Assembly: GCA_035691305.1 (NCBI GenBank)
Contig: DASSJF010000084.1
Location: 1 to 33,469 of the forward strand
Source of the DNA: a bacterium
GTDB lineage: Bacteria; Sysuimicrobiota; Sysuimicrobiia; Sysuimicrobiales; Segetimicrobiaceae
Length of the DNA stretch: 33,469 bases
Direction of reading: 5' to 3'
In this document: in pieces, positions 2,212 through 33,469 of the stretch
Numbering within the stretch: the stretch's first letter is position 1
Layout of the letters: each line of letters opens with the position of its first letter
Notes under the pieces: model-generated
Databases searched by the model: none
Seen by the model: only the letters and a program-made list of their open reading frames with translations
Told to the model about the DNA's origin: nothing
Program-made: the position numbers and the translations under genes

Positions 2212-3579
2212 ATGCGCACCACCGGCACCCCGCTCGGGCATAAGCTGCGACGCGGCCTGGCCGCGGAGGGCGCGGAGGCGGGCGGCCGCCCGCTTACCGA
2301 GGGTCTGCCGCACAGCGGGCCCGAGCGCGCGCTGCTCGTCGGTATGCTCGGCGCCCGGGAGGACGCGGGCGAGGAGGCCTGCCAAGAATTGGCCCGGCTC
2401 GCCGAGACCGCCGGCGCCGCGGTCGCCGGTGTCGTGGTCCAGCACCGGACGCGCCCCGATCCCGCGACCGCTGTCGGCGCGGGCAAGGTGGAAGAGATCC
2501 GGTCGCGCGTGCGCTCGTCCGGTGCCGACGTGGTGATCTTCGACCACGAACTCACGCCGGCGCAGCAGCGCAATCTCGAGCGCGCGCTCGACACCAAAGT
2601 CCTCGACCGCACCGCGCTCGTGCTCGACATCTTCGCCCAGCGCGCCCGAACCCGGGAGGGCCGCCTGCAGGTCGAGCTGGCACAGATGACCTATCTGCTG
2701 CCGCGGCTCGCCGGGCGGGGCGTGCTGCTCTCCCGGCTCGGCGGCGGGATCGGCACCCGGGGTCCCGGCGAGACGAAGCTCGAGGTCGATCGCCGCCGGA
2801 TCCGCACCCGGATCACCGCGCTCGGCCGCGAGATCAACGCGATGCAGCGGCACCGCCAGCGCGAGCGGCAGTCGCGCAAGGACGCGGCGCTGCCGGTCGC
2901 GGTGCTGGTCGGCTATACCAACGCGGGCAAGTCGACGCTGCTCAACGCCCTGACGCGCGCGCACGTGCTGACCGCGGACAAGTTGTTCGCGACGCTCGAT
3001 CCGACGACGCGGCGCGTCGTCCTGCCGAACCGGCGCACCCTGCTGCTCGTGGATACCGTCGGCTTCATCCAGAAGTTGCCCCACGATCTCGTCGCGGCAT
3101 TCCGCGCGACGCTCGAAGAGGTGACCGAGGCGGATCTCCTGATCCACGTGATCGACGCCGGCCACCCGCGGTGGACCGCCCAGCGCGAAGCGGTGGAGCA
3201 GGTGTTGCGCGATCTCGGCGCGTCCGGCACTCCGCGCGTCACGGTGCTGAACAAGGCGGATCGGCTGTCGCCGGAGGCCCTGCGCGACGTCACCGCCGAG
3301 GAACCGGACGGCATCCTCATCTCCGCCGTCCGCGGCGTCGGCCTCGCGAATCTGCTGCGCCGCGTCGCCGCGGCGCTGCCCGGACCGGTGGAGCGGGTGC
3401 GGCTCGTGATTCCGTACCAGCGCCTCGCGGTGTTGTCGCGGCTGTACGGCGCGGGGCGCGTCGTGCGACGCGAGGACGGGGCCGCCGGCATCGTCGTCGA
3501 GGCCGAGATCCCGGCGGCCGGCCTCGGGCCGTTCCGGCCGTATTTGGACGGGCGGGCGGCGCGGACGGCGGCTAACTGA
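2212..3579 (+). CDS. hflX: GTPase HflX
   Basis: A ribosome-associated GTPase that splits stalled or stress-inactivated 70S ribosomes. The 455-residue chain has the HflX N-terminal domain with the glycine-rich motif GRGVLLSRLGGGIGTRGPGE around 168-187, a coiled linker, then the G domain: G1 GYTNAGKST at 234-242, switch region FATLDPTT near 259, G3 DTVGF at 281-285 and G4 NKAD near 348. A further C-terminal domain ends at residue 455. The ATG lies 6 bases after the dapL stop with no strong Shine-Dalgarno sequence, so translation may depend on dapL. It is convergent with lexA; a hairpin lies between the two stops. Confidence 0.95.
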   Translation: MRTTGTPLGHKLRRGLAAEGAEAGGRPLTEGLPHSGPERALLVGMLGAREDAGEEACQELARLAETAGAAVAGVVVQHRTRPDPATAVGAGKVEEIRSRVRSSGADVVIFDHELTPAQQRNLERALDTKVLDRTALVLDIFAQRARTREGRLQVELAQMTYLLPRLAGRGVLLSRLGGGIGTRGPGETKLEVDRRRIRTRITALGREINAMQRHRQRERQSRKDAALPVAVLVGYTNAGKSTLLNALTRAHVLTADKLFATLDPTTRRVVLPNRRTLLLVDTVGFIQKLPHDLVAAFRATLEEVTEADLLIHVIDAGHPRWTAQREAVEQVLRDLGASGTPRVTVLNKADRLSPEALRDVTAEEPDGILISAVRGVGLANLLRRVAAALPGPVERVRLVIPYQRLAVLSRLYGAGRVVRREDGAAGIVVEAEIPAAGLGPFRPYLDGRAARTAAN

Positions 3580-3612
3580 TGACCGAGGCGGGCGTCGAGC
3601 CGAAAACGTTTA

Positions 3613-3636
3613 GGGCCGTCTCGTTCGAGGCGGCCC
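3613..3636. terminator. Hairpin between convergent hflX and lexA
   Basis: A ten-pair stem (GGGCCGTCTC / GAGGCGGCCC, one G-T pair) with a GTTC loop sits between the two convergent stop codons. On the minus strand it is followed by TAAACGTTTT, a modest T-rich tail, so it would serve lexA best. On the plus strand there is no T-run. Function as a terminator is inferred from structure and position. Confidence 0.6.
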
Positions 3637-3665
3637 CGGGACGCGGGTCTACGACGCCGGCCGCG

Positions 3666-4280
3666 CTACGACAGCCGGCGGATCAGGGCGACGGCCTTGC
3701 CGATGACCGTGACCTCCCGCGTAATGATCGGCGACATCGTGCTGTTCTCAGGCTGGAGCCGGACATGGTCGCGCTCTTTGTAGAACCGCTTTACGGTCGC
3801 CTCGTCGCCGAGGAGCGCCGCGACGATCTCGCCGTTGGACGCTGTGGCCTGCGGCCGGATAACCACGAAGTCGCCGTCGTAGATGCCGGCCTCGATCATG
3901 CTGTCGCCGCGTACCCTCAGGATAAAGGCCCCGTCCTCGCGCACGAAATCGCGGGGCAGCGGGAAGACGTCCTCGATGTTTTCCTCGGCCAGGAGCGGCG
4001 CACCCGCCGCGATCCGGCCGACGACCGGGACGTTGATCACGCGCTTGGGCGGCTGGCTGGCGCCGTCCTTCAGGACCTCGATCGCCCGGGGCTTGCTCGG
4101 GTCGCGCCGGATGTAGCCCTTCTTCTCCAGCGCCGCGAGGTGGCTGTGAACCGTCGAGCTGCTCGTCAGCCCGAGCGCCGCGCCGATCTCTCGCACCGAC
4201 GGCGGATAGCCCTTGCGCTGCATACTGTCGAGCAGATATCCGAGAATCTCGCGTTGGCGCTTCGTCAAGACTCTGCCCAC
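3666..4280 (-). CDS. lexA: SOS repressor LexA
   Basis: Transcriptional repressor of the SOS response that cleaves itself when RecA is activated by single-stranded DNA. The 204-residue protein has the LexA winged helix at 1-70 (LTKRQREIL, then the recognition region [21 protein letters not shown]) and an S24 peptidase domain with the Ala92-Gly93 cleavage site (RIAAGAP), nucleophile Ser127 in GDSMIEAGI and general base Lys164 in EATVKRFY. The GTG at 4280 is chosen because GGGAGG lies about 8 bases upstream and the family N-terminus follows; the longer reading to 4361 would run through the promoter. An SOS box overlaps the -35 region, so it is very likely autoregulated. Confidence 0.96.
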
Positions 4281-4332
4281 GCGCTGCCTCCCTCGCTTCG
4301 GTTCGGCGTCCGCACGGATGGTGAGCGGACGG

Positions 4333-4372
4333 ATTATAGCACAGGCTTTGACATTACGCAAACACCTGTTCG
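4333..4372 (-). promoter_or_regulatory. lexA promoter with SOS box
   Basis: Reading the minus strand, TTGCGT (4361-4356) and TATAAT (4338-4333) are separated by 17 bases, a good sigma-70-type promoter about 50 bases before the lexA GTG. Overlapping the -35 is CGAACAGGTGTTTG (4372-4359), which fits the Gram-positive LexA operator CGAACRNRYGTTYG exactly. This is the site by which LexA would repress its own gene. Confidence 0.85.
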
Positions 4373-23936: not shown

Positions 23937-24253
23937 TTATGTGAAGTAAGCGGCTATTGTCCGTCCCTTCGAGGGGCGGGCTGTTTGGCGGCCGTGTTGT
24001 AGGTTAGATAACGACCGCTCCCCTGTCAGACTTAGCAACGGGTCAAACGTGGGGATCAGGTTGTCGATGAAATCCGCCATTTGCCGGCGATAGTAGGAAT
24101 TGCCGGAAGTGTATCGCGGACGCTGACTACGCAATAGATCACCTGTCGCGTATCCGGATTGCGCTTGGTCCCGACTACGTAGGGATCAGTATCGAAGAAG
24201 GCTTGGGTCGTGGTATCCGGGTCACGGATGTGCTGTTAGAATGGCGGTGTCAT
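23937..24253 (-). pseudogene. Broken ORF resembling the 'GD-x-x-HNLRSALDHL' hypothetical family
   Basis: On the minus strand, codons from an ATG at 24253 read five residues then a TAA (24238-24236), then an open stretch containing AFFDTDPYVVGTKRNPD, RQVIYCVVSV and IPTIAG, which ends at 24056. The neighbouring frame continues with ADFIDNLIPTFDPLLSL down to 23937. Together they resemble the first part of a common family of bacterial proteins of unknown function, whose hallmark is a GD..HNLRSALDHL segment. The frame change at this very segment, the nonsense codon and the missing remainder indicate a decayed gene. G+C is about 52% in the 60 bases counted here, well below neighbours. Family assignment is from memory of the pattern. 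Confidence 0.5.
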
Positions 24254-24440
24254 GGCCGCGAAAAAACGCAAATCCCGTTCACTCGTTCGCGAAGGCGAAC
24301 CCTCACAGAAAACACGCGGGGGACTGGAGATCCCAGTCCCCACGCAACGCGAACTCTCAGGATTTTTCCGCAAGGTTATTCGGAAGCGGTCTACCGAGCC
24401 TGCGCCTTCTCGTTCCCGACGAGGGAAAGCCACGCATTGA
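24252..24440 (+). CDS. Small ORF, possibly truncated by the IS remnant
   Basis: A 62-codon frame starting ATG at 24252. The first 40 residues are highly basic then contain KTRGGLEIPVPTQREL, a pattern (KT..GLEIPVP.R..F) that I recognise from many small bacterial proteins of unknown function. The last third, RKRSTEPAPSRSRRGKATH, overlaps the transposase remnant (from 24391) on the other strand and looks unrelated, so the original end may have been replaced when the IS inserted. TAGAAT at 24237-24242 lies nine bases before the ATG and could be a leaderless -10; there is no Shine-Dalgarno sequence. Its ATG is back to back with that of the broken ORF on the other strand. Confidence 0.45.
   Translation: MAAKKRKSRSLVREGEPSQKTRGGLEIPVPTQRELSGFFRKVIRKRSTEPAPSRSRRGKATH
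24319..24341 (-). terminator. Perfect hairpin at the end of the IS remnant
   Basis: A nine-pair perfect stem (GGGGACTGG / CCAGTCCCC) with a five-base loop, followed on the minus strand by CGCGTGTTTTCTG. It lies 50 bases after the transposase stop and could end its transcript. It also lies within the 62-codon ORF on the other strand. A second, shorter hairpin (GTTCGC / GCGAAC) is at 24285-24300. Confidence 0.45.
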
Positions 24441-25124
24441 ACACCCCTTTGGGGTGCTTCCGGTTGTTGTAGCGGAATGCGTATTCGTCGAGGTATTTCT
24501 GAAGGTGCCTCGTCGGAACCCCCGTGATAGACCCCCGCCAATTCCGTTCTTTACCAACGCCTTCAGACTGTGGTAAATGCGGAGGTTTGTCTCCGCGCTT
24601 CCGTTGCGTCATGCTAAAGACTGGGACATCGTGTCGCGGTCCGGTCCGAGGTAGGTCTCGTCCATTTCGACGGATTCGCCAAGTCCACCGAGCGGCGGTG
24701 CGGTCTGTTCAGACGCCGACGCCAGTGTGCGAATCCGATCGAACATGCGCCATGCGGTCTTGTACGTGACGCCCAATTCCCGTTCCAGTTGTTTCGCGGA
24801 GATTCCGCACCGAGTGCTGGCCATCAGGTACATGGCATAGAACCACAGTTTGAGGGACGTAGCGGAATCCTGAAAGATCGTCCCGACCATCGGGTGTTCG
24901 TGATGCCCGCAGAACTGGCAGGAGTACGACGGACGTCCGTTGTTCCGATGGTGTTTCGTAACCTTCTGACACTTTGGGCAGTAAATCCCGTTGGGATACA
25001 GCGTCTTGACGAGGTACTCAAGACACGTCGCGTCGTCGGGGAACTGCCGTTCGAACTCCATCAGCGACGTGCGCGAGTCCGAGGACTTTGCCCGTTTCGG
25101 ACCGTTTCGGTTAACTTTCGACAT
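24391..25124 (-). pseudogene. IS1595-family transposase remnant
   Basis: The 5' part (25124-24609) encodes 171 residues: a zinc ribbon (YCPKCQKVTKHH, YSCQFCGHHEHP), the helical segment TIFQDSATSLKLWFYAMYLMA, the helix-turn-helix-like ISAKQLERELGVTYKTAWRM and the first catalytic acid in ESVEMDETYLG. It then breaks off at SQSLA-stop. The 3' part restarts in another frame and encodes WRGSITGVPTRHLQKYLDEYAFRYNNR, the usual end of these transposases, finishing at 24391. The central part with the second catalytic Asp is missing, and a further frame change lies near 24560. I found no terminal inverted repeats. The element is non-functional. Confidence 0.85.
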
Positions 25125-25210
25125 TTGTCATCCCGTCCCAGTTGGTGCGAGAATGCTCCGCAATGAAAGCCGAGTCAATCGAGGGAGATATGATCCGCGA
25201 AGAAGATGAA

Positions 25211-25429
25211 TCATGACCGCTTGGGGAAATGAGCCGACTGCGCGGCTTCGGTAAGAATCTTTGCTTGAACATCGTAAACAATGTCATGCGCCTTACTCAA
25301 GAACGTGACGATTTGCGGAAGTGATTTCTCCAACTGGTCAAGGCCGGTCATTCCTCTTACCGCGTGGGTGTGAACGACCATCTGGGTAACAACATCTCTC
25401 AGTTCATCCTGGCTCAGTCGCGTTACCAT
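25211..25429 (-). CDS. Small helical protein of unknown function
   Basis: A 72-residue protein, not recognised. It is predicted from sequence to be mostly helical (LSQDELRDVVTQMVVHTHAV, LEKSLPQIVTFLSKAHDIVYDV) with no membrane segment. The ATG at 25429 is chosen because a perfect AGGAGG lies 8 bases upstream; the GTG at 25438 abuts this Shine-Dalgarno sequence. A good promoter precedes it. These signals suggest a real expressed gene despite its place in a decayed, lower-G+C island next to a transposase remnant. A role with the mobile element or as a small regulator is possible but not shown. Confidence 0.65.
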   Translation of the reverse strand: MVTRLSQDELRDVVTQMVVHTHAVRGMTGLDQLEKSLPQIVTFLSKAHDIVYDVQAKILTEAAQSAHFPKRS

Positions 25430-25453
25430 TCGAATCACCTCCTGCTAACGAAA

Positions 25454-25482
25454 AATATACTACAAGGCCGTACGTCCGTAAA
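25454..25482 (-). promoter_or_regulatory. Promoter of the 72-residue gene
   Basis: On the minus strand TTTACG (25482-25477) and TATATT (25459-25454) are spaced by exactly 17 bases and lie about 25 bases before the ATG at 25429, with AGGAGG between. Confidence 0.65.
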
Positions 25483-25610
25483 GGGGATAATAGCCAAGTA
25501 GGCGGCGCCTACCCCTTAAGACGGAAAGGTGCTGAGTGGTGCGGGTATCCGTAATCGAGCCGCAAGCCAAGACACCCGGAGAGGCGGTGGCAGACGGTGC
25601 CGCCGCTCCC

Positions 25611-25847
25611 CTACCCGTCGGACGCCTGCGGGCGCGGCGCGAAGAACAGCAGGTATGCGATCTCGAGAAGTCCCGCGGTATTGACGGCGAGCAGCACGAC
25701 ATACCACGCAAGCTGGTCTGCGCGGGCGGCCCGCCACAGGGCGAAGCCCTTCCAGACCAGCGACCAGAGAATCAGGGCCGTAAGCAGCCACGGGTGCATG
25801 TGCAGCGCGGTAAGCGGAAAACCCGGCAGGCCAATCCCACGAAGCAT
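25611..25847 (-). CDS. Two-helix membrane protein, DUF5652-like
   Basis: A 78-residue protein with two hydrophobic helices: LLTALILWSLVWKGFALW and WYVVLLAVNTAGLLEIAYLLFF. The pattern PWLLTALILWSLVWKGFALWRAA followed by NTAGLLEIAYLLFF resembles the DUF5652 family of unknown function. The ATG at 25847 has GGAAG about 8 bases upstream; an internal ATG at 25799 would omit 16 residues. It is divergent from the EamA gene. Confidence 0.75.
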   Translation of the reverse strand: MLRGIGLPGFPLTALHMHPWLLTALILWSLVWKGFALWRAARADQLAWYVVLLAVNTAGLLEIAYLLFFAPRPQASDG

Positions 25848-25964
25848 CGCGATCTTCCGTCCTTTCCGACGAGGCGCTTGCTGTGCTGCCGCCGAACACA
25901 GTCGCCCGGCCGTGAGCGCGCGCCGTCGTAGATCCTCATCCTATCTTAGAGCATCGAGAAATCG

Positions 25965-26873
25965 ATGGCCGCCGTCCTCATTCTGATCGCCGCCTGCCTC
26001 TACGGGATCTCGCCGATTCTGGCGAAGGTCGCCTACGGCTACGGGATCACGCCGCTCGTACTCATGACGTGGCGCGTGAGCATCGCGGCCGGGCTGTTTT
26101 GGACCGCGGCGTTCGCGTTTCGGCGGGTCGCGGCGGTCGAGCGCCGGATGCTCGGCACGCTCGTGGCGCTCGGGACGACGTTCGTCCCGATTCAAGTCTA
26201 CTCGTACTTCTACGCGCTCTCGCTGCTGCCGGCGTCGACCGCGTCGGTGATCGTCAACACGTCGCCGGTGCACGTCGCGTGGATGGAGCGCCTCGCGCTC
26301 GGCGAGCAACTCGCCGGTTCGGACCTCGCCATCCTGGGCGTGATCGTGGCCGGCGCGATCCTCGTCGGCGGCGCGACTCCGCACGTCGTCCATCCCGTCG
26401 GTTTTGCCGTGCTCGGCGTGGCGACGCTCGCCTCGGCCTTCTATCTCGTCATGCAGCGCCGCGTGGTGCGCGACGTGCCGCCGCTGATGATCCTGGCGGT
26501 CATCCAGCTGAGCTCGGCGGGCGTCTACTGGGCCGCGGTCGCGGTCACCCGACAGGCGGTGCTGCCGGTACCCGCTGCCGCGCTCGCCGCGATCGTCGGG
26601 TCGGCCTTCGCGGCGTCGGTCGCCTCGTTTCTCGTGCTGCTCGCGCTGCGGACGCTCGCCGCGACCCGCACGGCGATGCTCGGCATGCTCGAACCGGTGG
26701 TGACAGTCGTGCTGAGTGTCGCACTGCTGGCGGACACGATGACCTGGTTGCGCCTGGCCGGAATCGTCACCGTACTGGCCGGCATCACCACTTTCTACTG
26801 GCGCCTGCGGCAGGTTCCCGCCCCGGTTTTCGCTCGGGATCGGTCTGAGCCGGGAGATTCTGGGGCATTATGA
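25965..26873 (+). CDS. EamA-family (DMT) transporter
   Basis: A 302-residue inner-membrane protein with about ten hydrophobic helices arranged as two EamA repeats. It shows the family features: an initial AACLYGISPILAKVAY helix with the conserved PI.AK, LTLVLMTWR-like PLVLMTWRVSIAAGLF, ALSLLPASTASVIVNTSPVHVA at the end of the first repeat and LAATRTAMLGMLEPVVTVVLS in the second. EamA proteins export metabolites such as amino acids or take up various solutes; substrate cannot be told. The ATG at 25965 has no strong Shine-Dalgarno sequence. Its stop overlaps the GGDEF gene start (ATGA), so the two are coupled. Confidence 0.9.
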   Translation: MAAVLILIAACLYGISPILAKVAYGYGITPLVLMTWRVSIAAGLFWTAAFAFRRVAAVERRMLGTLVALGTTFVPIQVYSYFYALSLLPASTASVIVNTSPVHVAWMERLALGEQLAGSDLAILGVIVAGAILVGGATPHVVHPVGFAVLGVATLASAFYLVMQRRVVRDVPPLMILAVIQLSSAGVYWAAVAVTRQAVLPVPAAALAAIVGSAFAASVASFLVLLALRTLAATRTAMLGMLEPVVTVVLSVALLADTMTWLRLAGIVTVLAGITTFYWRLRQVPAPVFARDRSEPGDSGAL

Positions 26874-29263
26874 TGGCAAAATCTCGCCTGAAGTTTGAGA
26901 AGCATTCAGGCGCGACTCCGGGGGCAGATGGCGCCGGCGTGAGCCATTTTCTCAATCGGACCATCGTATACGGGGCCACCCGCTGGGGGACGCTTGTCGC
27001 GGCCGTGGTGCTCACGGCGCTGGCCGTGGCCGCGGAGCCGGCGCCGTTCCCCCTTCTGCTCGGGCTCTTTGCGCTCGCCAGCCTCGCGGCGGAATCTGGG
27101 AACCTCACCCTGCCCTACTCCGGCTCGGTCTCGTTCGGGACGGTCGCCACGCTACCGGCGATTGTATTCCTCGGCGGCGGCTACGCGGCCCTCTGCGGTG
27201 CCGCTGGTCAGCTGCTGATTCACCTGCGGCACCGGCGGCCTCTCGCGACTCTCATTTTCAACGGGAGCCAGCGCGCCGTCTCGATCGTCCTCGCAAGCGT
27301 CGCCTGGTTCTGGATCGCAACGGGCCGCGCCGCGTTTACGAACGCGGGCGCCGCATTTGCGCCGGAGCGCGTCATCCCGGCCGCGCTGGGGTGCGTGACG
27401 GTATACGCGCTCGCGACCCACGTGCTCGTGAGCTTCTACTCCGCAACGCGGCGCAAGGTGGCGGTCTGGACGGTGCTTGTCGGCAACGCGCCGACCCGCC
27501 TCGCCGCGACGGCCGCGCTTGGCTCAGTCGGCTTATTCGTCGCCATAATCGCGCGCGCGCTCCCGATCGCGCCCGACAATCTTCAGTACGTCCTGCTCCT
27601 GCCCGCGATCGCGGGCGTGACATTTCTCATCTACGACGGACGTCGCGAAACGAACCGGCAGCTCTTCCACCTCTACTCGGCCGTCACCGATCTCGTCCAA
27701 GCGATCGACCTCGATCAACTGCTGCAGCGGCTCGCGGGACAGCTCGATCGCATCGCCACTCCGGCCGGCCTATGGGTGGCGCTGCGCGATGGGCACAACC
27801 GCTTCGAGGTGGCCGTGTCGCGCGGCCTCGAAGCTCCGGTGGCGCAGCGCCTCGCCGACACGGTGATGCGCGACCTGTGGGGTCCCCGCCCCGACATCTC
27901 GGTGCGCCTCACGCGCATCGCCGACTACGCCCGCAACGCGCCGGAAGCGCTCGCGGTGTCCGGCGAGCCGCTGCGCAGCGTGATGCTCGCGCCGCTGGCG
28001 GCCGGGCCGGATCTCATCGGCGTCGTCGGGATGGTGCACCCGATCGCAGACTATTTCATCCCGGCGGAAGAGCGCGCAGTCGCAATGCTGGCCGCGGAGA
28101 CCGCGTTCGTCGTCAACTATCTGCGGCTGTACCGCGAGTCTCAGCAGAACCTCGCGCGCGCGGAGGGACTGCAGACACGCAACGCCGAGCTGCTGCGTGA
28201 TTCCCAGCGCCGTGCCCATCAACTCGTGCTGCTCAACCGGGCGTTCATGCGGGTCGCGGCGTCGCTCGCGGCGGACGAGGTGTTCTCCGCGCTCGTCGAC
28301 GAGCTCCACTCCTCGCTCGGCTACCCGCGGGTCTCGCTGCGCCTGCTCGAGGGCGAGACCCTGCGCCTCGCCGCCGAGCGCGGCTACGCCGGAGCGGCCG
28401 AGCGCGTCCCCATCAGCCGCGGGATCACCGGCCGCGTCGCGCGCACCGGGCAGCCGGCGCTGGTTCTCGACGTCCGCCGGGATCCGGACTACGTGGCCTC
28501 CCACCCTATGGTTACGCAACTGGCGGGCGCGCCGATCACCCGGCGGGGCGCCGTCGCCGGGGTGATCACGATCGAGAGCGTGGAGCCCGTGCTGGCGTCC
28601 GCGGACCTCGAGCTGCTGACGACGCTGGCCGGCTACGCGACGCTCGCGATCGAGAACGCCCGGAACTACGAGGAGGCCCGGACGCTCGCGACGACCGACG
28701 GCCTGACCGGGCTGCCGAACCGCCGCATGCTGTGGGCGGCGTTCGAGCGCGAACTGGCCCGGTCGAGCCGGTACGACACCCCGCTCTCCGCGATCATGGT
28801 GGAGGTCGATCGCTTCAAGCTCTACAACGACACGCACGGCCATCTGCGCGGGGACGCGGCGCTGCAGGACGTGGCCCGGCTGCTCGTCCGGGAGCACCGC
28901 GCGAACATCGACGTCGTGGCGCGCTACGGCGGGGACGAGTTCGTGACGCTGCTGCCGCAGACCGGGAAGGCCGAGGCGGCGGCCGTGGCGGAGCGGATCC
29001 GCCGGGTCATCGGCGGCGCCGGCGTGGGAGGCCCGGCGGGAGGCGCCGCGCCCGGGACCCCTGCGCTCGTGACCGTCAGCCTCGGTGTAGCGACCTTTCC
29101 CGAAGACGGACGAACGATCGAAGCCCTGCTGCGGGCGGCGGACCGGTCGATGTACGAGGTGAAGGCCGCCGGCGGGGACGCCGTGGCCGTCGCGCCGGGT
29201 CGCGGCCGGTCCCGACCGTTGGCCGCTAGCGGCCCTCCCGCATCATCGCCAGCGACTGATTGA
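26870..29263 (+). CDS. Membrane-bound diguanylate cyclase with two GAF domains
   Basis: A 797-residue sensor that would make cyclic di-GMP. Residues about 35-255 hold seven or so membrane helices. Two GAF domains follow (roughly 275-420, with LYSAVTDLVQAIDLDQLL, and 455-605, with FMRVAASLAADEVFSALV), joined by a short coiled coil, then a GGDEF domain (about 620-780) with TTDGLTGLPNRRM, VDRFKLYNDTHGH and the intact active-site RYGGDEF at 685-691. The product-inhibition I-site (RxxD five residues before GGDEF) reads ANID, so feedback inhibition is probably absent. The ATG overlaps the EamA stop. Its last 38 bases overlap the convergent STAS gene. Confidence 0.92.
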   Translation: MMAKSRLKFEKHSGATPGADGAGVSHFLNRTIVYGATRWGTLVAAVVLTALAVAAEPAPFPLLLGLFALASLAAESGNLTLPYSGSVSFGTVATLPAIVFLGGGYAALCGAAGQLLIHLRHRRPLATLIFNGSQRAVSIVLASVAWFWIATGRAAFTNAGAAFAPERVIPAALGCVTVYALATHVLVSFYSATRRKVAVWTVLVGNAPTRLAATAALGSVGLFVAIIARALPIAPDNLQYVLLLPAIAGVTFLIYDGRRETNRQLFHLYSAVTDLVQAIDLDQLLQRLAGQLDRIATPAGLWVALRDGHNRFEVAVSRGLEAPVAQRLADTVMRDLWGPRPDISVRLTRIADYARNAPEALAVSGEPLRSVMLAPLAAGPDLIGVVGMVHPIADYFIPAEERAVAMLAAETAFVVNYLRLYRESQQNLARAEGLQTRNAELLRDSQRRAHQLVLLNRAFMRVAASLAADEVFSALVDELHSSLGYPRVSLRLLEGETLRLAAERGYAGAAERVPISRGITGRVARTGQPALVLDVRRDPDYVASHPMVTQLAGAPITRRGAVAGVITIESVEPVLASADLELLTTLAGYATLAIENARNYEEARTLATTDGLTGLPNRRMLWAAFERELARSSRYDTPLSAIMVEVDRFKLYNDTHGHLRGDAALQDVARLLVREHRANIDVVARYGGDEFVTLLPQTGKAEAAAVAERIRRVIGGAGVGGPAGGAAPGTPALVTVSLGVATFPEDGRTIEALLRAADRSMYEVKAAGGDAVAVAPGRGRSRPLAASGPPASSPATD

Positions 29264-29585
29264 CGCTCGTATCAAGCGGCACCACCGCGTCCACATGGGT
29301 CAGCAGTAGAATCCGGCGGATCAGGGACTTCTCCGGCATCGCCACACGGAACTTGAGATGCCGCATCTTCAGGCGCTCGGCGAGCTCGAGGATTAGCTGC
29401 ACGCCGCGGCTGTCGAGGTAGGTCACGCCGCTCAGGTCGAGGATCAGGCCGGGCGCGGTGTTCGAGACCATCCCGAAGATTTGCGTGCGGACCTCGGCCG
29501 CGTTCGCAAGGTCGATCTCCCCGTCCAGCGCGGCGACGGGAATGCCCGCGTCCTCGATCATACGGACTTCCGCGGCAGTCGTCAT
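29226..29585 (-). CDS. STAS-domain anti-sigma factor antagonist
   Basis: A 119-residue single STAS domain of the SpoIIAA/RsbV type. It has GEIDLANAAEVRTQI and DLSGVTYLDSRGVQLI, where Ser59 is the residue usually phosphorylated by an RsbW-like kinase and dephosphorylated by a SpoIIE-type phosphatase. The ATG at 29585 has GGAGG about 9 bases upstream and overlaps the stop of the multidomain phosphatase gene (ATGA). It is the last gene of the signalling operon. No sigma factor gene lies in the window. Confidence 0.92.
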   Translation of the reverse strand: MTTAAEVRMIEDAGIPVAALDGEIDLANAAEVRTQIFGMVSNTAPGLILDLSGVTYLDSRGVQLILELAERLKMRHLKFRVAMPEKSLIRRILLLTHVDAVVPLDTSVNQSLAMMREGR

Positions 29586-31654
29586 ACTCGAACCCCTCCC
29601 GGCTGGGCAACCCGTTTGCGCATCCGCACCTCGGTGCCGGCGGACGTCGCCTCGACTTCGACTTCTCCCATCAGCGCCTCTATCAGCTTCAGCCCGTGAC
29701 CGCGGTACCGGCCGCGCGACGACCGCCACCGCCCGATGTCCCGGACGGTGGCCGTGAGCACGTTGCCGGCGAGCGAGACTTGGCATTCGAAGAGGCCGTC
29801 GGTCGGGCCGTACGCGTGCTCGATCGAGTTGGCGCAGGCCTCGTTGATCGCCGTCATGGCGTCGTAGGCCTCTTCCGCCGCGAGGTCGACCGATTTGAAC
29901 CAGCGCCGCAGCGTCTGTCGCATCTGGGCCAGCGACGCGGGGACCGCGGGCAGCCGGATCTCGAGCCGCCCGGGGCTGAGCGGCGCGAGGCGCAGCGCGA
30001 CGAGCGCGATGTCGTCCTCCGCCGTCCGGCCTTCGAGGGCCGCCGCGACCACCCGGTCGACCAGGTCGTCGACCGGAATCCCGTGGTCGCGGCGCAGCAC
30101 CTCGGTGACGCGCTCGAACCCTTCGTCGATGCTCCGGCCGCGCACTTCGAGCAGGCCGTCCGTATAGACCATGACGGTCGACCGGGGCGGCAGGATGGCC
30201 CGTTGCTCCGTGTACGCGACCCCGCGCACGCCGAGGGGCGGGGCGCCCCCGTCGAGGCTGGTCACCCCGCCCGGCCCGACGACCAGCGGCGGCAGGTGCC
30301 CGAGGTTCAGATACCGTGCCTCCCGGCTCTCCGGGTCGATCACCAGGTAGACGAGCGTCGCCATCGTGCGGTCGTCGACGAGCCGGGTGAGACGTTCGGC
30401 GATCAGCGCCGGCGGGTTGCCCTCGAGGGCGTACGCGCGCAGGGCGTTGCGCAGTTGCCCCATCACGGCCGCCGCCCACACCCCTCGTCCCGCGACGTCG
30501 CCGATCACGAGACCGATGTGGCCGTTCGGAAGCGTCATGACGTCATACCAGTCGCCGCCGACAGCCTCGTGGTTGCCGGGCAGGTACCGCGCCGAGAGCG
30601 TGAGCCCCGGGATCTCCGGCAGGCGCTCCGGCAGCAGGCTGCGCTGCAACGTCTCGGCGGTGCCGCGGGCCCGCTCGTAGAGGAGCGTGTTCTCAAGCGC
30701 CACCGCCACCTGCAGCGCGAGCGCCTCGATCTGGACGCGTACCTCCGGCGAGAACGCGTGTCCCGCCCGCCGCGCGAGGACCATCGCGCCGAGCGGCTGT
30801 CCGAGCCGTCCGCGGACCCGCAGCGCGAAGAACGACGACCAGGGTCCGTCGCCGTTCACGGCCGCCTCGGCGAGCGGTTCAAAGGTCGCGTTCGGAAGAT
30901 CGGCCGGGTTGCGCTCCGCGGCCCAGACGGCCGCGAAGATGCCGGCGATGTCTTCCCGCGGCACGCGGAGCCCGACCGCCTCGGGCGCGACCGCGACGGC
31001 CCAGCGCGCGGGATCGTTCGGTACCGCCGGACCGCCGTCGCCTCGGTAGAATCCGGCCGCCGCGACCGCGGCGCCGGCGAGACGGCAGGCCGCGTCGACG
31101 ACGGACCGCAGCACCTCGTCGGCGCCGCGCGCGGCGTGAATCGCGGTGGCCACGTCGGTCAGCGCGCGCAGCTGCTGGACGGTCTGCCGAAGTTCGGTGG
31201 TGCGTTCGTGGACGGTTTCTTCGAGGCGCCCCGCGTGGCGCGCCAGCGCCTGCTGCTGGTCGGCGATCTGCCGCCGCAGCTGCCGCACCTGCACGGCGCG
31301 GCCGAGCGACGCGGTGAAGTACTCCCGATCGATCGGTTTCTGCACGTAGTCGTAGGCGCCGGCCCGCAGCGATCGGATCGCGAGGTCGTGCTCGCCGTGG
31401 CCGGTGATCAGGAGAACCGGCGTGTCGGGCCGCACCGCCCGGATGTGGGACAGCAGCGCGAGCCCGTCCATGCCCGGCATCTTGATATCGCTGACGATCG
31501 CGTCGTAGTCGACGGCGCCGATCTGTGCGAGCGCCGGGGCGGCCGAGGAGCACGTTTCCACGGCCACCCCGGGCATGCGCAGGCAAATCGTCTCGGGCAG
31601 CGCTTCGAGCAGCGCCGGATCGTCGTCGACGACGAGCACGCGGGGCCGCATCAT
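29582..31654 (-). CDS. Response regulator-GAF-SpoIIE phosphatase-RsbW-type kinase fusion
   Basis: A 690-residue protein joining a whole partner switch. Receiver domain 1-125: acidic pocket D10-D12, phosphoacceptor Asp56 (SDIKMPG), Thr84 and Lys106 (VQKPID). Coiled linker about 125-165. GAF about 165-325. PP2C/SpoIIE phosphatase about 350-560 with metal-binding GGDWYD (366-371), Asp386 in GDVAGRG, TDG (498-500) and DDI (547-549). RsbW-like HATPase about 570-685 with NEACANSIEHAY (N-box), Asp639 in RDIGRW and RGHGLKLI. Receiver phosphorylation by the upstream kinase should set the balance between phosphatase and kinase acting on the downstream STAS protein. ATG at 31654 overlaps the kinase stop (ATGA). 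Confidence 0.92.
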   Translation of the reverse strand: MMRPRVLVVDDDPALLEALPETICLRMPGVAVETCSSAAPALAQIGAVDYDAIVSDIKMPGMDGLALLSHIRAVRPDTPVLLITGHGEHDLAIRSLRAGAYDYVQKPIDREYFTASLGRAVQVRQLRRQIADQQQALARHAGRLEETVHERTTELRQTVQQLRALTDVATAIHAARGADEVLRSVVDAACRLAGAAVAAAGFYRGDGGPAVPNDPARWAVAVAPEAVGLRVPREDIAGIFAAVWAAERNPADLPNATFEPLAEAAVNGDGPWSSFFALRVRGRLGQPLGAMVLARRAGHAFSPEVRVQIEALALQVAVALENTLLYERARGTAETLQRSLLPERLPEIPGLTLSARYLPGNHEAVGGDWYDVMTLPNGHIGLVIGDVAGRGVWAAAVMGQLRNALRAYALEGNPPALIAERLTRLVDDRTMATLVYLVIDPESREARYLNLGHLPPLVVGPGGVTSLDGGAPPLGVRGVAYTEQRAILPPRSTVMVYTDGLLEVRGRSIDEGFERVTEVLRRDHGIPVDDLVDRVVAAALEGRTAEDDIALVALRLAPLSPGRLEIRLPAVPASLAQMRQTLRRWFKSVDLAAEEAYDAMTAINEACANSIEHAYGPTDGLFECQVSLAGNVLTATVRDIGRWRSSRGRYRGHGLKLIEALMGEVEVEATSAGTEVRMRKRVAQPGGVRV

Positions 31655-32943
31655 GTGGCGGCGGCCTCGGGCACGGCCGTTTCCAGCAGCGGGAGCTGCA
31701 GGAGGAACGCCGCGCCGGGCTCGGTCCGGCGCACGAGGGCGATCGAACCTCCGTGGTCCTTCAAAATGCCGTATGTGATCGCGAGGCCGAGGCCGGTCCC
31801 CTTCCCCACGACCTTCGTGGTGAAGAACGGGTCGAAGATGCGTCGCTCGAGGCCGGCCGGGATGCCGGGTCCCGTGTCCCGCACCAGCACCTCGGCCCAT
31901 CCCGGGCGCACGCTGCTGCGGATCTCGATCCGCCGCGGGCCGGGTACGCCGGCCGCATCCGGCACGACGTCCGCCAGTGCGTCGCGGGCGTTGGTGAGCA
32001 GGTTGATGAAGACCTGCTCGAGCTGGATCGGGCTGGCGGCGACCGTCGGATCCTCCGGCGCGAGGTCCAACACCACGTCGATGTCGCGCAGGCGCAGCTG
32101 TTCCTGCATCAGCGAGAGCGAGTGCCGCACCACGTCGTTGATCGCCACCGGCTCGCGACTGACCGGGGCGGTCCGTCCGAACGTCCGGAGGTGCGAGATG
32201 ATCTCTGTCGCCTTGCGGACCTGGGCGGTCGCCTTGTCGAGGTCGCGCGTGATGCGCTCAAGGTCCACGTCCCGCGAGATGCCGACGATGCGGATCTGGT
32301 CGATCACGTTGCCGATGAACAGGCCGATGTTGTTGAGGGGGTTGTTGAGCTCGTGGGCGACGCCGGTGGTGAGCTCGCCGAGCGTGGCGAGCTTGCCGGC
32401 CTGCACGAGCTGCTCCTGCTTGTCGCGCAGATCCTGCTCGCGGCGCTGCATCTCCATCGTCATCTCGTGCAGGTCGCCCATGATGTGGATCATGGCGCTC
32501 CGTGCCTGGCCGAGCCGGAGGTTGGAACGGTGCGAGTCCTGGAGGATGTGCAGCAGCGCGCGCCGCGAGTTGTCGAGGCGCTCGGTCTGCTGGGCGAGGC
32601 GGCGGCGGTCCTGCTCGTAGTCGACCAGAATGTGCAGCATCGCTTTGCGCTGGTCGCCGAGCCGGCGGTTCACGTCGTGGAGGTCGGCCATGATGTGCAG
32701 CATCGCACGGCGCTGCTCGTCGCGCTGGCGCAGGCGCCCTTCCAGGTCGGCGATCCGTTCGAGGAGGCGCGCGTGCTCCGCCGCGGATAGCGCCGGCGGC
32801 GTCCCGTCCGGCGGAGGACCTCCGGCCGCTCCTGGGCCTGCGGTGCGGGCCAAAGATGCCCCTCCTGCCTGCCAGGAGGCTTTGCCGTTGCCCCCCGGGA
32901 CGGCGGGCGCGGCCGATTGTGGCGCTGCCGGGCGGGCGTCCAC
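31651..32943 (-). CDS. Cytosolic sensor histidine kinase with repeated coiled-coil input region
   Basis: About 430 residues from the GTG at 32943. The N-terminus is Ala/Pro/Gly-rich, then a long coiled coil holds four copies of A-M/L-L/I-H-I-M/L-x-D at 80, 101, 129 and 150 (spacings 21, 28, 21). The dimerisation domain has the phosphoacceptor His197 in GVAHELNNP, then NINLL-type N-box (INLLTNARDAL), RDTGPGIP, FDPFFTTK and GKGTGLGL of the ATPase domain. No membrane helix. The likely partner is the receiver of the next gene, whose ATG overlaps this stop. Alternative starts: GTG 32991 (inside the PAS gene) or TTG 32853, which has the best Shine-Dalgarno sequence (AGGAGG, 7 bases). Confidence 0.9.
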   Translation of the reverse strand: MDARPAAPQSAAPAVPGGNGKASWQAGGASLARTAGPGAAGGPPPDGTPPALSAAEHARLLERIADLEGRLRQRDEQRRAMLHIMADLHDVNRRLGDQRKAMLHILVDYEQDRRRLAQQTERLDNSRRALLHILQDSHRSNLRLGQARSAMIHIMGDLHEMTMEMQRREQDLRDKQEQLVQAGKLATLGELTTGVAHELNNPLNNIGLFIGNVIDQIRIVGISRDVDLERITRDLDKATAQVRKATEIISHLRTFGRTAPVSREPVAINDVVRHSLSLMQEQLRLRDIDVVLDLAPEDPTVAASPIQLEQVFINLLTNARDALADVVPDAAGVPGPRRIEIRSSVRPGWAEVLVRDTGPGIPAGLERRIFDPFFTTKVVGKGTGLGLAITYGILKDHGGSIALVRRTEPGAAFLLQLPLLETAVPEAAAT

Positions 32944-32945
32944 CC

Positions 32946-33469
32946 CTACTGCTGCGTCTCGCCCCGCAGCCGCTCCACTTCGCTCTGCCACCGCTCCACC
33001 TCTTTTTCGAGCGCGATCATCTTGATCTCGCGGCCGACGACGACCTCTTCGAACTTCTCGAGCTCGAGGATCTTCTCTTGGAGCTCGAGCTTCGACTTTT
33101 CGAGGTCGCGGACAACGCGCTCATAGGCGCGCATGTCACGAAGGATGCCGATCACGCCGATCGCTTTGCCGTCCGAGTCGCGGAGCGCGGACGCGTTGAG
33201 GCTCGTCGGGATGACTTCGCCGGTGGCGGCACGCGGGTTGAGGCGGACGTTCCGCGTCACGCCGCGCTCGACGACCTCGCGGACCGCCGCGAGGAACTCG
33301 CGCGTTTCCTGAGGGGAGATGAACCGGGAGAGCGACTGCTCGATCACCTCGTCTCGGCGGAAGCCGAGCACTTCGGACACCGCGTCGTTGGTGTGCAGGA
33401 TCTTGCCTTCGAGGTCGGAGACGAACACCGGGTCCGGGGCGTTCTTGATCAGGCTTTCCGCGTAGGCGC
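32946..33469 (-). CDS. PAS-domain protein, start cut off by the window edge
   Basis: The visible 174 codons begin inside a PAS domain (SLIKNAPDPVFVSDLEGKI, LHTNDAVSEVLGF, then GVIGILRDM) that would sense a ligand or redox state. A coiled coil follows (DLEKSKLELQEKILELEKFEEVVVGREIKMIALEKEVERW), the linker usual at the end of PAS-containing signalling proteins. It stops (TAG) two bases before the GTG of the histidine kinase, so it belongs to the same operon. There is no output domain after the linker; what lies upstream of the window cannot be seen. Confidence 0.85.
   Translation of the reverse strand, partial: AYAESLIKNAPDPVFVSDLEGKILHTNDAVSEVLGFRRDEVIEQSLSRFISPQETREFLAAVREVVERGVTRNVRLNPRAATGEVIPTSLNASALRDSDGKAIGVIGILRDMRAYERVVRDLEKSKLELQEKILELEKFEEVVVGREIKMIALEKEVERWQSEVERLRGETQQ

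Follow-up and report, generated by a model that had tools for sequence, protein, structure and literature searches.

A predicted two-component STAS switch in Sysuimicrobiota whose input genes recur in other phyla

Gene content and domains of the operon

The stretch of DNA analysed here (the window) is the whole 33,469-nucleotide contig C84 (DASSJF010000084.1) of a 3.58-Mb draft genome in 87 contigs (GCA_035691305.1; completeness 96%, contamination 3.15%) from the Sysuimicrobiota, described as an uncultivated phylum (PMC11604079). At positions 29226-33467, all on the minus strand, it carries four adjacent genes encoding a PAS-array sensor protein, a histidine kinase (HK), a fusion of receiver (REC), GAF, SpoIIE-type phosphatase and RsbW-type domains, and a STAS protein (Table 1). 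The HK starts 2 bp past the PAS stop codon, and ATGA overlaps join the HK to the fusion gene and the fusion to the STAS gene, as an earlier reading of the letters alone (the sequence-only reading) had described. With a probability that we put at about 60%, the operon encodes a cytosolic two-component system in which the response regulator would act as a two-way enzyme on the STAS protein and an input cassette would have been joined to that enzyme at the linker helix of the REC domain.

The four genes stand in the same order at 10 loci in 10 genomes, the window included (the fusion of G020 is frame-shifted), which rules out open frames that overlap by chance; a 4-base overlap of the fusion and STAS genes recurs at all 10. 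The HK (threshold 1e-70), the PAS protein (1e-25) and REC-bearing fusions occur in an identical set of 10 out of 43 Sysuimicrobiota genomes; for the fusions, absence from the others is not proof, as only the best candidates were scored per genome (27 in the larger ones).

Contig C84 ends inside the PAS gene, so only the last 173 residues of the sensor are visible. This gene is broken by a contig end at 5 of the 10 loci, namely the window, L056 (G023), L058 (G028), L061 (G012) and L063 (G022), as would be expected if near-identical repeats break the assembly; tandem PAS units inside one protein are 77-96% identical, and complete relatives within the phylum have three or four of them. Across Sysuimicrobiota, Ktedonobacteria, Rokubacteria and Acidobacteria, the last PAS units share 80-93% identity, a stronger conservation than that of REC or HK. 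Eight PAS units inspected contain no Cys, Trp or conserved His, which argues against heme bound through His or a LOV-type flavin. A second PAS-HK stretch (four PAS units; HK 86% identical) occurs in the same bin at L167 (contig C50, 2-2493) and ends at the contig edge; it is either a second copy or the trace of another strain in the bin.

The hallmarks of a two-component pair are present, with a HisKA His and HATPase_c in the kinase and an Asp in REC (H197 and D56, invariant in the aligned copies). Pfam recognises HisKA/HATPase_c, REC and STAS, which bears out the proposal that a two-component pair and a STAS switch are coupled within one operon; the HisKA score of 24.7 bits is slightly below the Pfam cut-off of 26.9. 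The kinase has no hydrophobic segment, and mean hydropathy never exceeds 1.6 over any 19 residues of the four proteins (for the PAS protein, its visible part), so the pathway looks cytosolic. The His residues of its four repeats (Table 1) are spaced by 21, 28 and 21 and are invariant in 10 aligned HKs from four phyla, an alignment that excluded short HK forms; the short forms (L059, L063 and L071) retain only the last two. The sequence-only reading spoke of a phosphorelay. With no Hpt domain or second REC found in the four proteins, to which the Hpt search was confined and of which the PAS protein is incomplete, this looks instead like a one-step His-to-Asp system.

The fusion combines kinase-type and phosphatase-type domains with a receiver on one chain of 690 residues, as Pfam confirms. 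The REC motif residues (D10-D12, D56, T84 and K106) are present together with the SpoIIE motifs GDWYD (367), GDVAGRG (385), TDGL (498) and EDD (546). The acidic motifs of SpoIIE/RsbU PP2C phosphatases, which we take to bind metal, are complete (D368, D386, D499 and D547/D548), and these residues, D56 and N609 are invariant among nine aligned fusions, the G020 copy being omitted because a frame break splits it. The segment separating REC from SpoIIE, in which Pfam found GAF in both fusions tested (window and L061), is present at 9 of the 10 loci and gone in L069, whose REC-SpoIIE-RsbW protein has the layout of HsbR, discussed below. An AlphaFold model of the fusion (mean per-residue confidence, pLDDT, 81; predicted template modelling score, pTM, 0.52) contains a single helix from 110 to 174 and a second from 303 to 340 leading into SpoIIE, and its best matches in the PDB are the RsbU-RsbW structure of Rv1364c and RssB. 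No full-length relative was found on plasmids (0 of 54 records spanned 80% of the query). The STAS protein is a single-domain form with the motif LDSRG (57-61), and its predicted phosphorylation site Ser59, already singled out in the sequence-only reading, is kept in 10 of 10 STAS proteins.

Table 1. Features of the operon, with coordinates in the window
Feature	Position	Strand	Basis
PAS-array sensor protein, C-terminal 173 aa (last PAS unit and predicted coiled coil)	32946..33467	-	Pfam PAS 2.1e-20
Soluble HK, 430 aa, HisKA and HATPase_c, GTG start	31651..32943	-	HisKA 24.7 bits; HATPase_c 4.1e-20
Four R-x-A-[ML]-[LI]-H-I repeats, HK residues 78-158 (His 83, 104, 132, 153)	32470..32712	-	Sequence, alignment
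HK H197, predicted phospho-acceptor, motif HELNNP	32353..32355	-	Motif; invariant 10/10
REC-GAF-SpoIIE-RsbW fusion, 690 aa	29582..31654	-	Pfam domains, alignment, AlphaFold model
Receiver domain, residues 1-118; predicted phospho-acceptor D56 (31487-31489)	31301..31654	-	Response_reg 1.2e-27
Predicted 65-residue helix 110-174, REC into GAF; beyond the conserved linker, output varies by phylum	31133..31327	-	Identity profile, AlphaFold model
GAF domain, poorly conserved	30692..31126	-	GAF_2 1.2e-7
SpoIIE/PP2C phosphatase domain	29987..30526	-	SpoIIE 9.1e-45
RsbW-type HATPase_c_2 domain, N609, short ATP lid	29615..29950	-	HATPase_c_2 1.1e-19
STAS protein, 119 aa; predicted phospho-Ser59 (29409-29411)	29226..29585	-	Pfam STAS 3.5e-14

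The input cassette and its outputs across phyla

Relatives of the operon were sought in named genomes by a scan built on two REC patterns, which samples relatives of REC and misses systems lacking it. The window's domains were searched at 80 loci, and outputs were classed for L078-L093 and for later loci other than the distant L095-L155. Among the matches listed, the receivers that follow two Sysuimicrobiota loci are those of L078-L094 (57-69% identical), from Ktedonobacteria, Rokubacteria, Acidobacteria, Gemmatimonadetes and an actinomycete bin. PAS, HK and REC genes occur together at 12 of these 17 loci, and the HKs of L078, L085 and L082 are 59-66% identical to that of the window. L090 holds the end of an HK and a REC, with a PAS-HK stretch at a different contig end in that genome (L177), and L087, L088, L091 and L094 have a REC without the PAS-HK pair. 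Long HK frames in Rokubacteria were considered as fused PAS-HK proteins that would prove the partnership and were rejected, since PAS and HK lie in different reading frames and are thus separate genes.

The HK occurs in at least 27 of 47 Ktedonobacteria genomes (1e-60), at least 5 of 95 genomes of the Rokubacteria phylum and at least 1 of 247 genomes drawn from the Acidobacteria phylum (1e-70). These counts are lower bounds because only the best candidates were scored per genome (in larger genomes 37, 18 and 7, respectively), and the Acidobacteria sample omitted G048 (L089), which carries the HK. Outside Ktedonobacteria, the distribution of the cassette looks patchy. Its REC adjoins the HK at 28 of 30 Ktedonobacteria HK loci and at all five in the Rokubacteria phylum.

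The outputs that follow the receiver differ by phylum. At the 30 Ktedonobacteria loci they comprise REC-HisKA-HATPase (27), REC with an unmatched output (1) and no REC (2), and none of the 30 has SpoIIE. The Rokubacteria phylum has four REC-histidine kinases and one REC-sigma-54 activator; REC-sigma-54-Fis proteins are found in Acidobacteria L085 and Gemmatimonadetes L093, L090 encodes REC-PAS-HisKA-HATPase, and the contig of L089 ends after REC. In Sysuimicrobiota, the output is SpoIIE-RsbW with STAS at 10 of 10 loci. L093 also carries a short stand-alone REC with a similar linker (1896-2393), located between the HK and the REC-sigma-54 gene.

Conservation continues past the receiver for a short distance. 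Mean identity to the window over REC, the next 40 and the following 40 residues is 74, 62 and 33% in the nine other SpoIIE rows, 66, 55 and 13% in 35 REC-histidine-kinase rows (including L087, L088, L090 and L091) and 64, 52 and 9% in three sigma-54 rows. The Rokubacteria rows L082 and L228 miss most of the linker and contribute aligned residues only. Second views and identical rows were dropped from this profile, and two rows of unknown output (61, 48 and 3%) were kept outside the main figures. The conserved stretch of REC and linker stops near ERTREL.

In a tree of the HKs, all output labels need 5 changes (minimum possible 4; shuffled mean 15.9), and the SpoIIE rows lie on one side of a branch with support 76/88 that recurs in 80% of 200 bootstrap trees. 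The tree used 48 of 52 rows, four identical ones having been removed; left out beforehand were second locus views (L168-L170, L172, L174-L176 and L179), partial HKs (L167, L177 and L180) and loci with no full HK match (L087, L088, L090 and L091), and L094 was outside the set. The output half likewise occurs by itself in the phylum, as SpoIIE-RsbW proteins without REC have an adjoining STAS gene at 8 of 9 loci fetched. A tree was also built from 33 SpoIIE-RsbW sequences of the phylum; the 10 that have REC, including one partial sequence, are interspersed among the REC-less ones.

From gene neighbourhoods and alignments, PAS, HK and REC are read here as an input cassette common to several phyla with its outputs exchanged. 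As the input cassette and the SpoIIE-RsbW and STAS pair each exist apart, a cross-phylum input appears to have been joined to an output of the Sysuimicrobiota, the junction probably being the REC linker helix, while the direction and number of joining events are not settled. A join at this helix fits the proposal that coiled-coil linkers serve as an 'exchangeable toolkit' for sensors and effectors (PMC12143880).

Proposed mechanism and competing explanations

In the mechanism favoured here, the PAS protein would sense a signal and act on the separate HK by coiled-coil contact, and the HK would autophosphorylate at H197 and then phosphorylate D56 of the fusion, as the motifs and strict gene pairing suggest. 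Phosphorylation of D56 would alter the long helix from REC through GAF to SpoIIE and hence phosphatase dimerisation, a principle published for RsbU and RssB, and the balance between the SpoIIE phosphatase and the RsbW kinase would set the state of Ser59. Unphosphorylated STAS may then bind an anti-sigma partner encoded elsewhere and free a sigma factor, which is the weakest step.

A possible anti-sigma partner is an RsbW-like protein encoded on contig C87 (L074; 3106-3549) directly before a sigma factor gene (3555-4349). Among the 43 genomes of the phylum, 21 carry relatives of it, at 22 loci in all; a strong sigma match adjoins 19 of the 22, two others are at contig ends and one match is weak. 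The N-box column holds no Asn at any of these 22 sigma-adjacent loci, four of which carry Asn one residue earlier, and a sigma partner unable to phosphorylate STAS would need a kinase such as the fusion. Of the 10 genomes that carry the module, 9 encode a C87-type protein, compared with 12 of the 33 that lack it (Fisher p 0.0039, ignoring kinship). The genome as a whole has 14 STAS matches, 7 of them above the family cut-off, and 12 matches to sigma-70 region 2.

Several points weigh against this mechanism. The operon contains no sigma or anti-sigma gene, and the link to C87 is one of co-occurrence only. A pTM of 0.52 leaves domain placement in the fusion model uncertain. In Ktedonobacteria, REC is missing beside the HK at two of the 30 loci, the branch supports make a single origin of the SpoIIE-output group likely rather than certain, and three changes of the REC label are required on the SpoIIE-RsbW tree, although the starred branches force only one. 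The sequence-only reading had receiver phosphorylation switching the sign of the action on STAS, which is the published model for HsbR, but the sign is not readable from sequence because phosphorylation of the RsfR receiver lowers its phosphatase activity (PMC10950880). By analogy with HsbR, we lean slightly towards a phosphorylated REC that would turn the phosphatase on. The RsbW-type domain also has a short ATP lid, and the Gly of its G1 motif is replaced by Trp.

A kinase role for this domain is favoured but left open. Its motif EACAN (605-609) supplies the catalytic N-box Asn of RsbW/SpoIIAB serine kinases (N609), and E605, N609, D639 and G641 are kept in all 10 aligned RsbW domains of the module. 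The claim that all key motifs are intact thus holds for the REC and SpoIIE residues and N609, but not for the lid, which alignments place below the length in solved RsbW and SpoIIAB. The G1 Asp and G2 lie 12-14 residues apart in 27 distinct SpoIIE-fused domains (28 rows, of which one repeats a locus; four further rows were unmeasured), compared with 22 in C48, the sole standalone RsbW-like protein measured, and the G1 motif reads D-x-G-x-W in the module's 10 copies. A phmmer search of the PDB with the RsbW domain alone gave no match at 0.01, whereas a profile search did match.

The short lid would suit a domain with no kinase role towards STAS, which would instead bind it or regulate the phosphatase; a separate RsbW of the C48 or C67 type, two of the standalone RsbW-like genes elsewhere in the genome, would then phosphorylate STAS, and the fusion would be a REC-controlled phosphatase like RsfR or RsbY. 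Rv1364c of Mycobacterium tuberculosis, with the same short lid and the same D-x-G-x-W, lends itself to both sides: 'Loss of kinase activity' is the title of an Rv1364c paper in the reference list of a review, yet that review (PMC9138534) and a second paper (PMC10950880) also report that the Rv1364c kinase domain phosphorylates its Ser600. The four conserved residues, kept in 10 of 10 copies although the sigma-adjacent RsbW-like proteins lack the Asn in 22 of 22, favour a kinase, and we regard the phosphatase-only fusion as possible but doubtful. Somewhat less probable again is that the RsbW domain serves, like its counterpart in CrsR, as the anti-sigma factor, and that unphosphorylated STAS displaces the sigma factor from it. 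The third domains of CrsR and HsbR do bind RpoS (PMC6482189), and the 12 sigma-70 region 2 matches offer candidates, but the module has no sigma gene and none of the 12 matches is on C84 (the profile search covered this genome and not the neighbours of the other loci).

A gene for a GAF-GGDEF protein with hydrophobic segments (26870-29263, plus strand) converges on the operon and overlaps the end of the STAS gene by 38 bp. STAS might act on this putative diguanylate cyclase, as phosphorylated HsbA binds the cyclase HsbD (PMC6482189). The gene is on the opposite strand and neighbours the module only in the window and G023 (L056), that is, at 2 of 10 loci, several others being cut by contig ends; the cyclase was rejected as the STAS target on this count and is very improbable in that role. 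Elsewhere in the window, G+C falls to 57.5% at 24001-26000, and a small gene within this stretch (24609-25061, minus strand) resembles an IS transposase fragment.

Relation to known switches and significance

A switch with REC, PP2C and kinase domains on one chain and a STAS partner has already been published, as the sequence-only reading acknowledged for some bacteria; its further statement that phosphatase and kinase are normally separate proteins does not hold for HsbR, CrsR, SypE and Rv1364c, each published as a single chain (Rv1364c without REC). HsbR-HsbA of Pseudomonas aeruginosa and CrsR-CrsA of Shewanella oneidensis share the order of REC, PP2C and kinase/anti-sigma domain and the small STAS partner, and the state of the HsbR receiver selects kinase or phosphatase action on HsbA Ser56 (PMC6482189). 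HsbR receives its input from three hybrid kinases through HptB (PMC6482189), whereas the window operon encodes a dedicated HK, which is not a hybrid, along with a PAS protein; a further difference from HsbR and CrsR is the segment that separates REC from SpoIIE in 9 of 10 Sysuimicrobiota loci. The targets of those systems are RpoS, FlgM and HsbD, whereas the partner of the module described here is hypothesised.

In the SypE-SypA system of Vibrio fischeri, the chain that controls the STAS protein likewise combines kinase, REC and PP2C domains, but in the order kinase-REC-PP2C, and its kinase requires N52 (PMC3610818). Rv1364c is the best match of the fusion in both sequence (9.6e-37) and fold (2.1e-25) and has PP2C followed by RsbW in the same way, with PAS in place of REC and STAS on the same chain (PMC9138534). 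In RsfS-RsfR and RsbK-RsbY, a histidine kinase and a REC-PP2C protein likewise act on a STAS protein; unlike the window fusion, RsfR and RsbY are not described with a kinase domain on that chain (PMC10950880). In the RsbQ-PAS module, too, a single conserved input is found with different outputs, namely PPM, histidine kinase or cyclase (PMC3183031). Compared with that module and the linker toolkit, a whole PAS/HK/REC cassette is exchanged here, with histidine kinase, sigma-54 activator and PPM-RsbW outputs. What is new is the presence of the four genes as a unit in 10 of 43 Sysuimicrobiota genomes and the apparent joining of two modules, the input half of which is found in other phyla with different outputs. 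A partial literature search, limited to top results, gave no match in titles or abstract beginnings to the PAS/HK/REC cassette or to a Sysuimicrobiota partner switch.

More tentatively, the PAS array, His-repeat HK and REC may form an interchangeable cassette for detecting a single shared signal across six phyla (as labelled in the records), with the output replaced after the REC linker. The same broader proposal would have the switch of the Sysuimicrobiota divided, in that the sigma-adjacent RsbW-like proteins lost the Asn and STAS phosphorylation was left to SpoIIE-RsbW fusions.

The strong conservation of the PAS units suggests a common signal, which could be searched for in named Ktedonobacter strains bearing the cassette. 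One sensor, kinase and receiver cassette connected, in different phyla, to three kinds of output would provide a natural series, with which the proposal of an exchangeable coiled-coil toolkit becomes directly testable using native proteins. The operon would also extend response regulators that combine kinase and phosphatase to the phylum Sysuimicrobiota.

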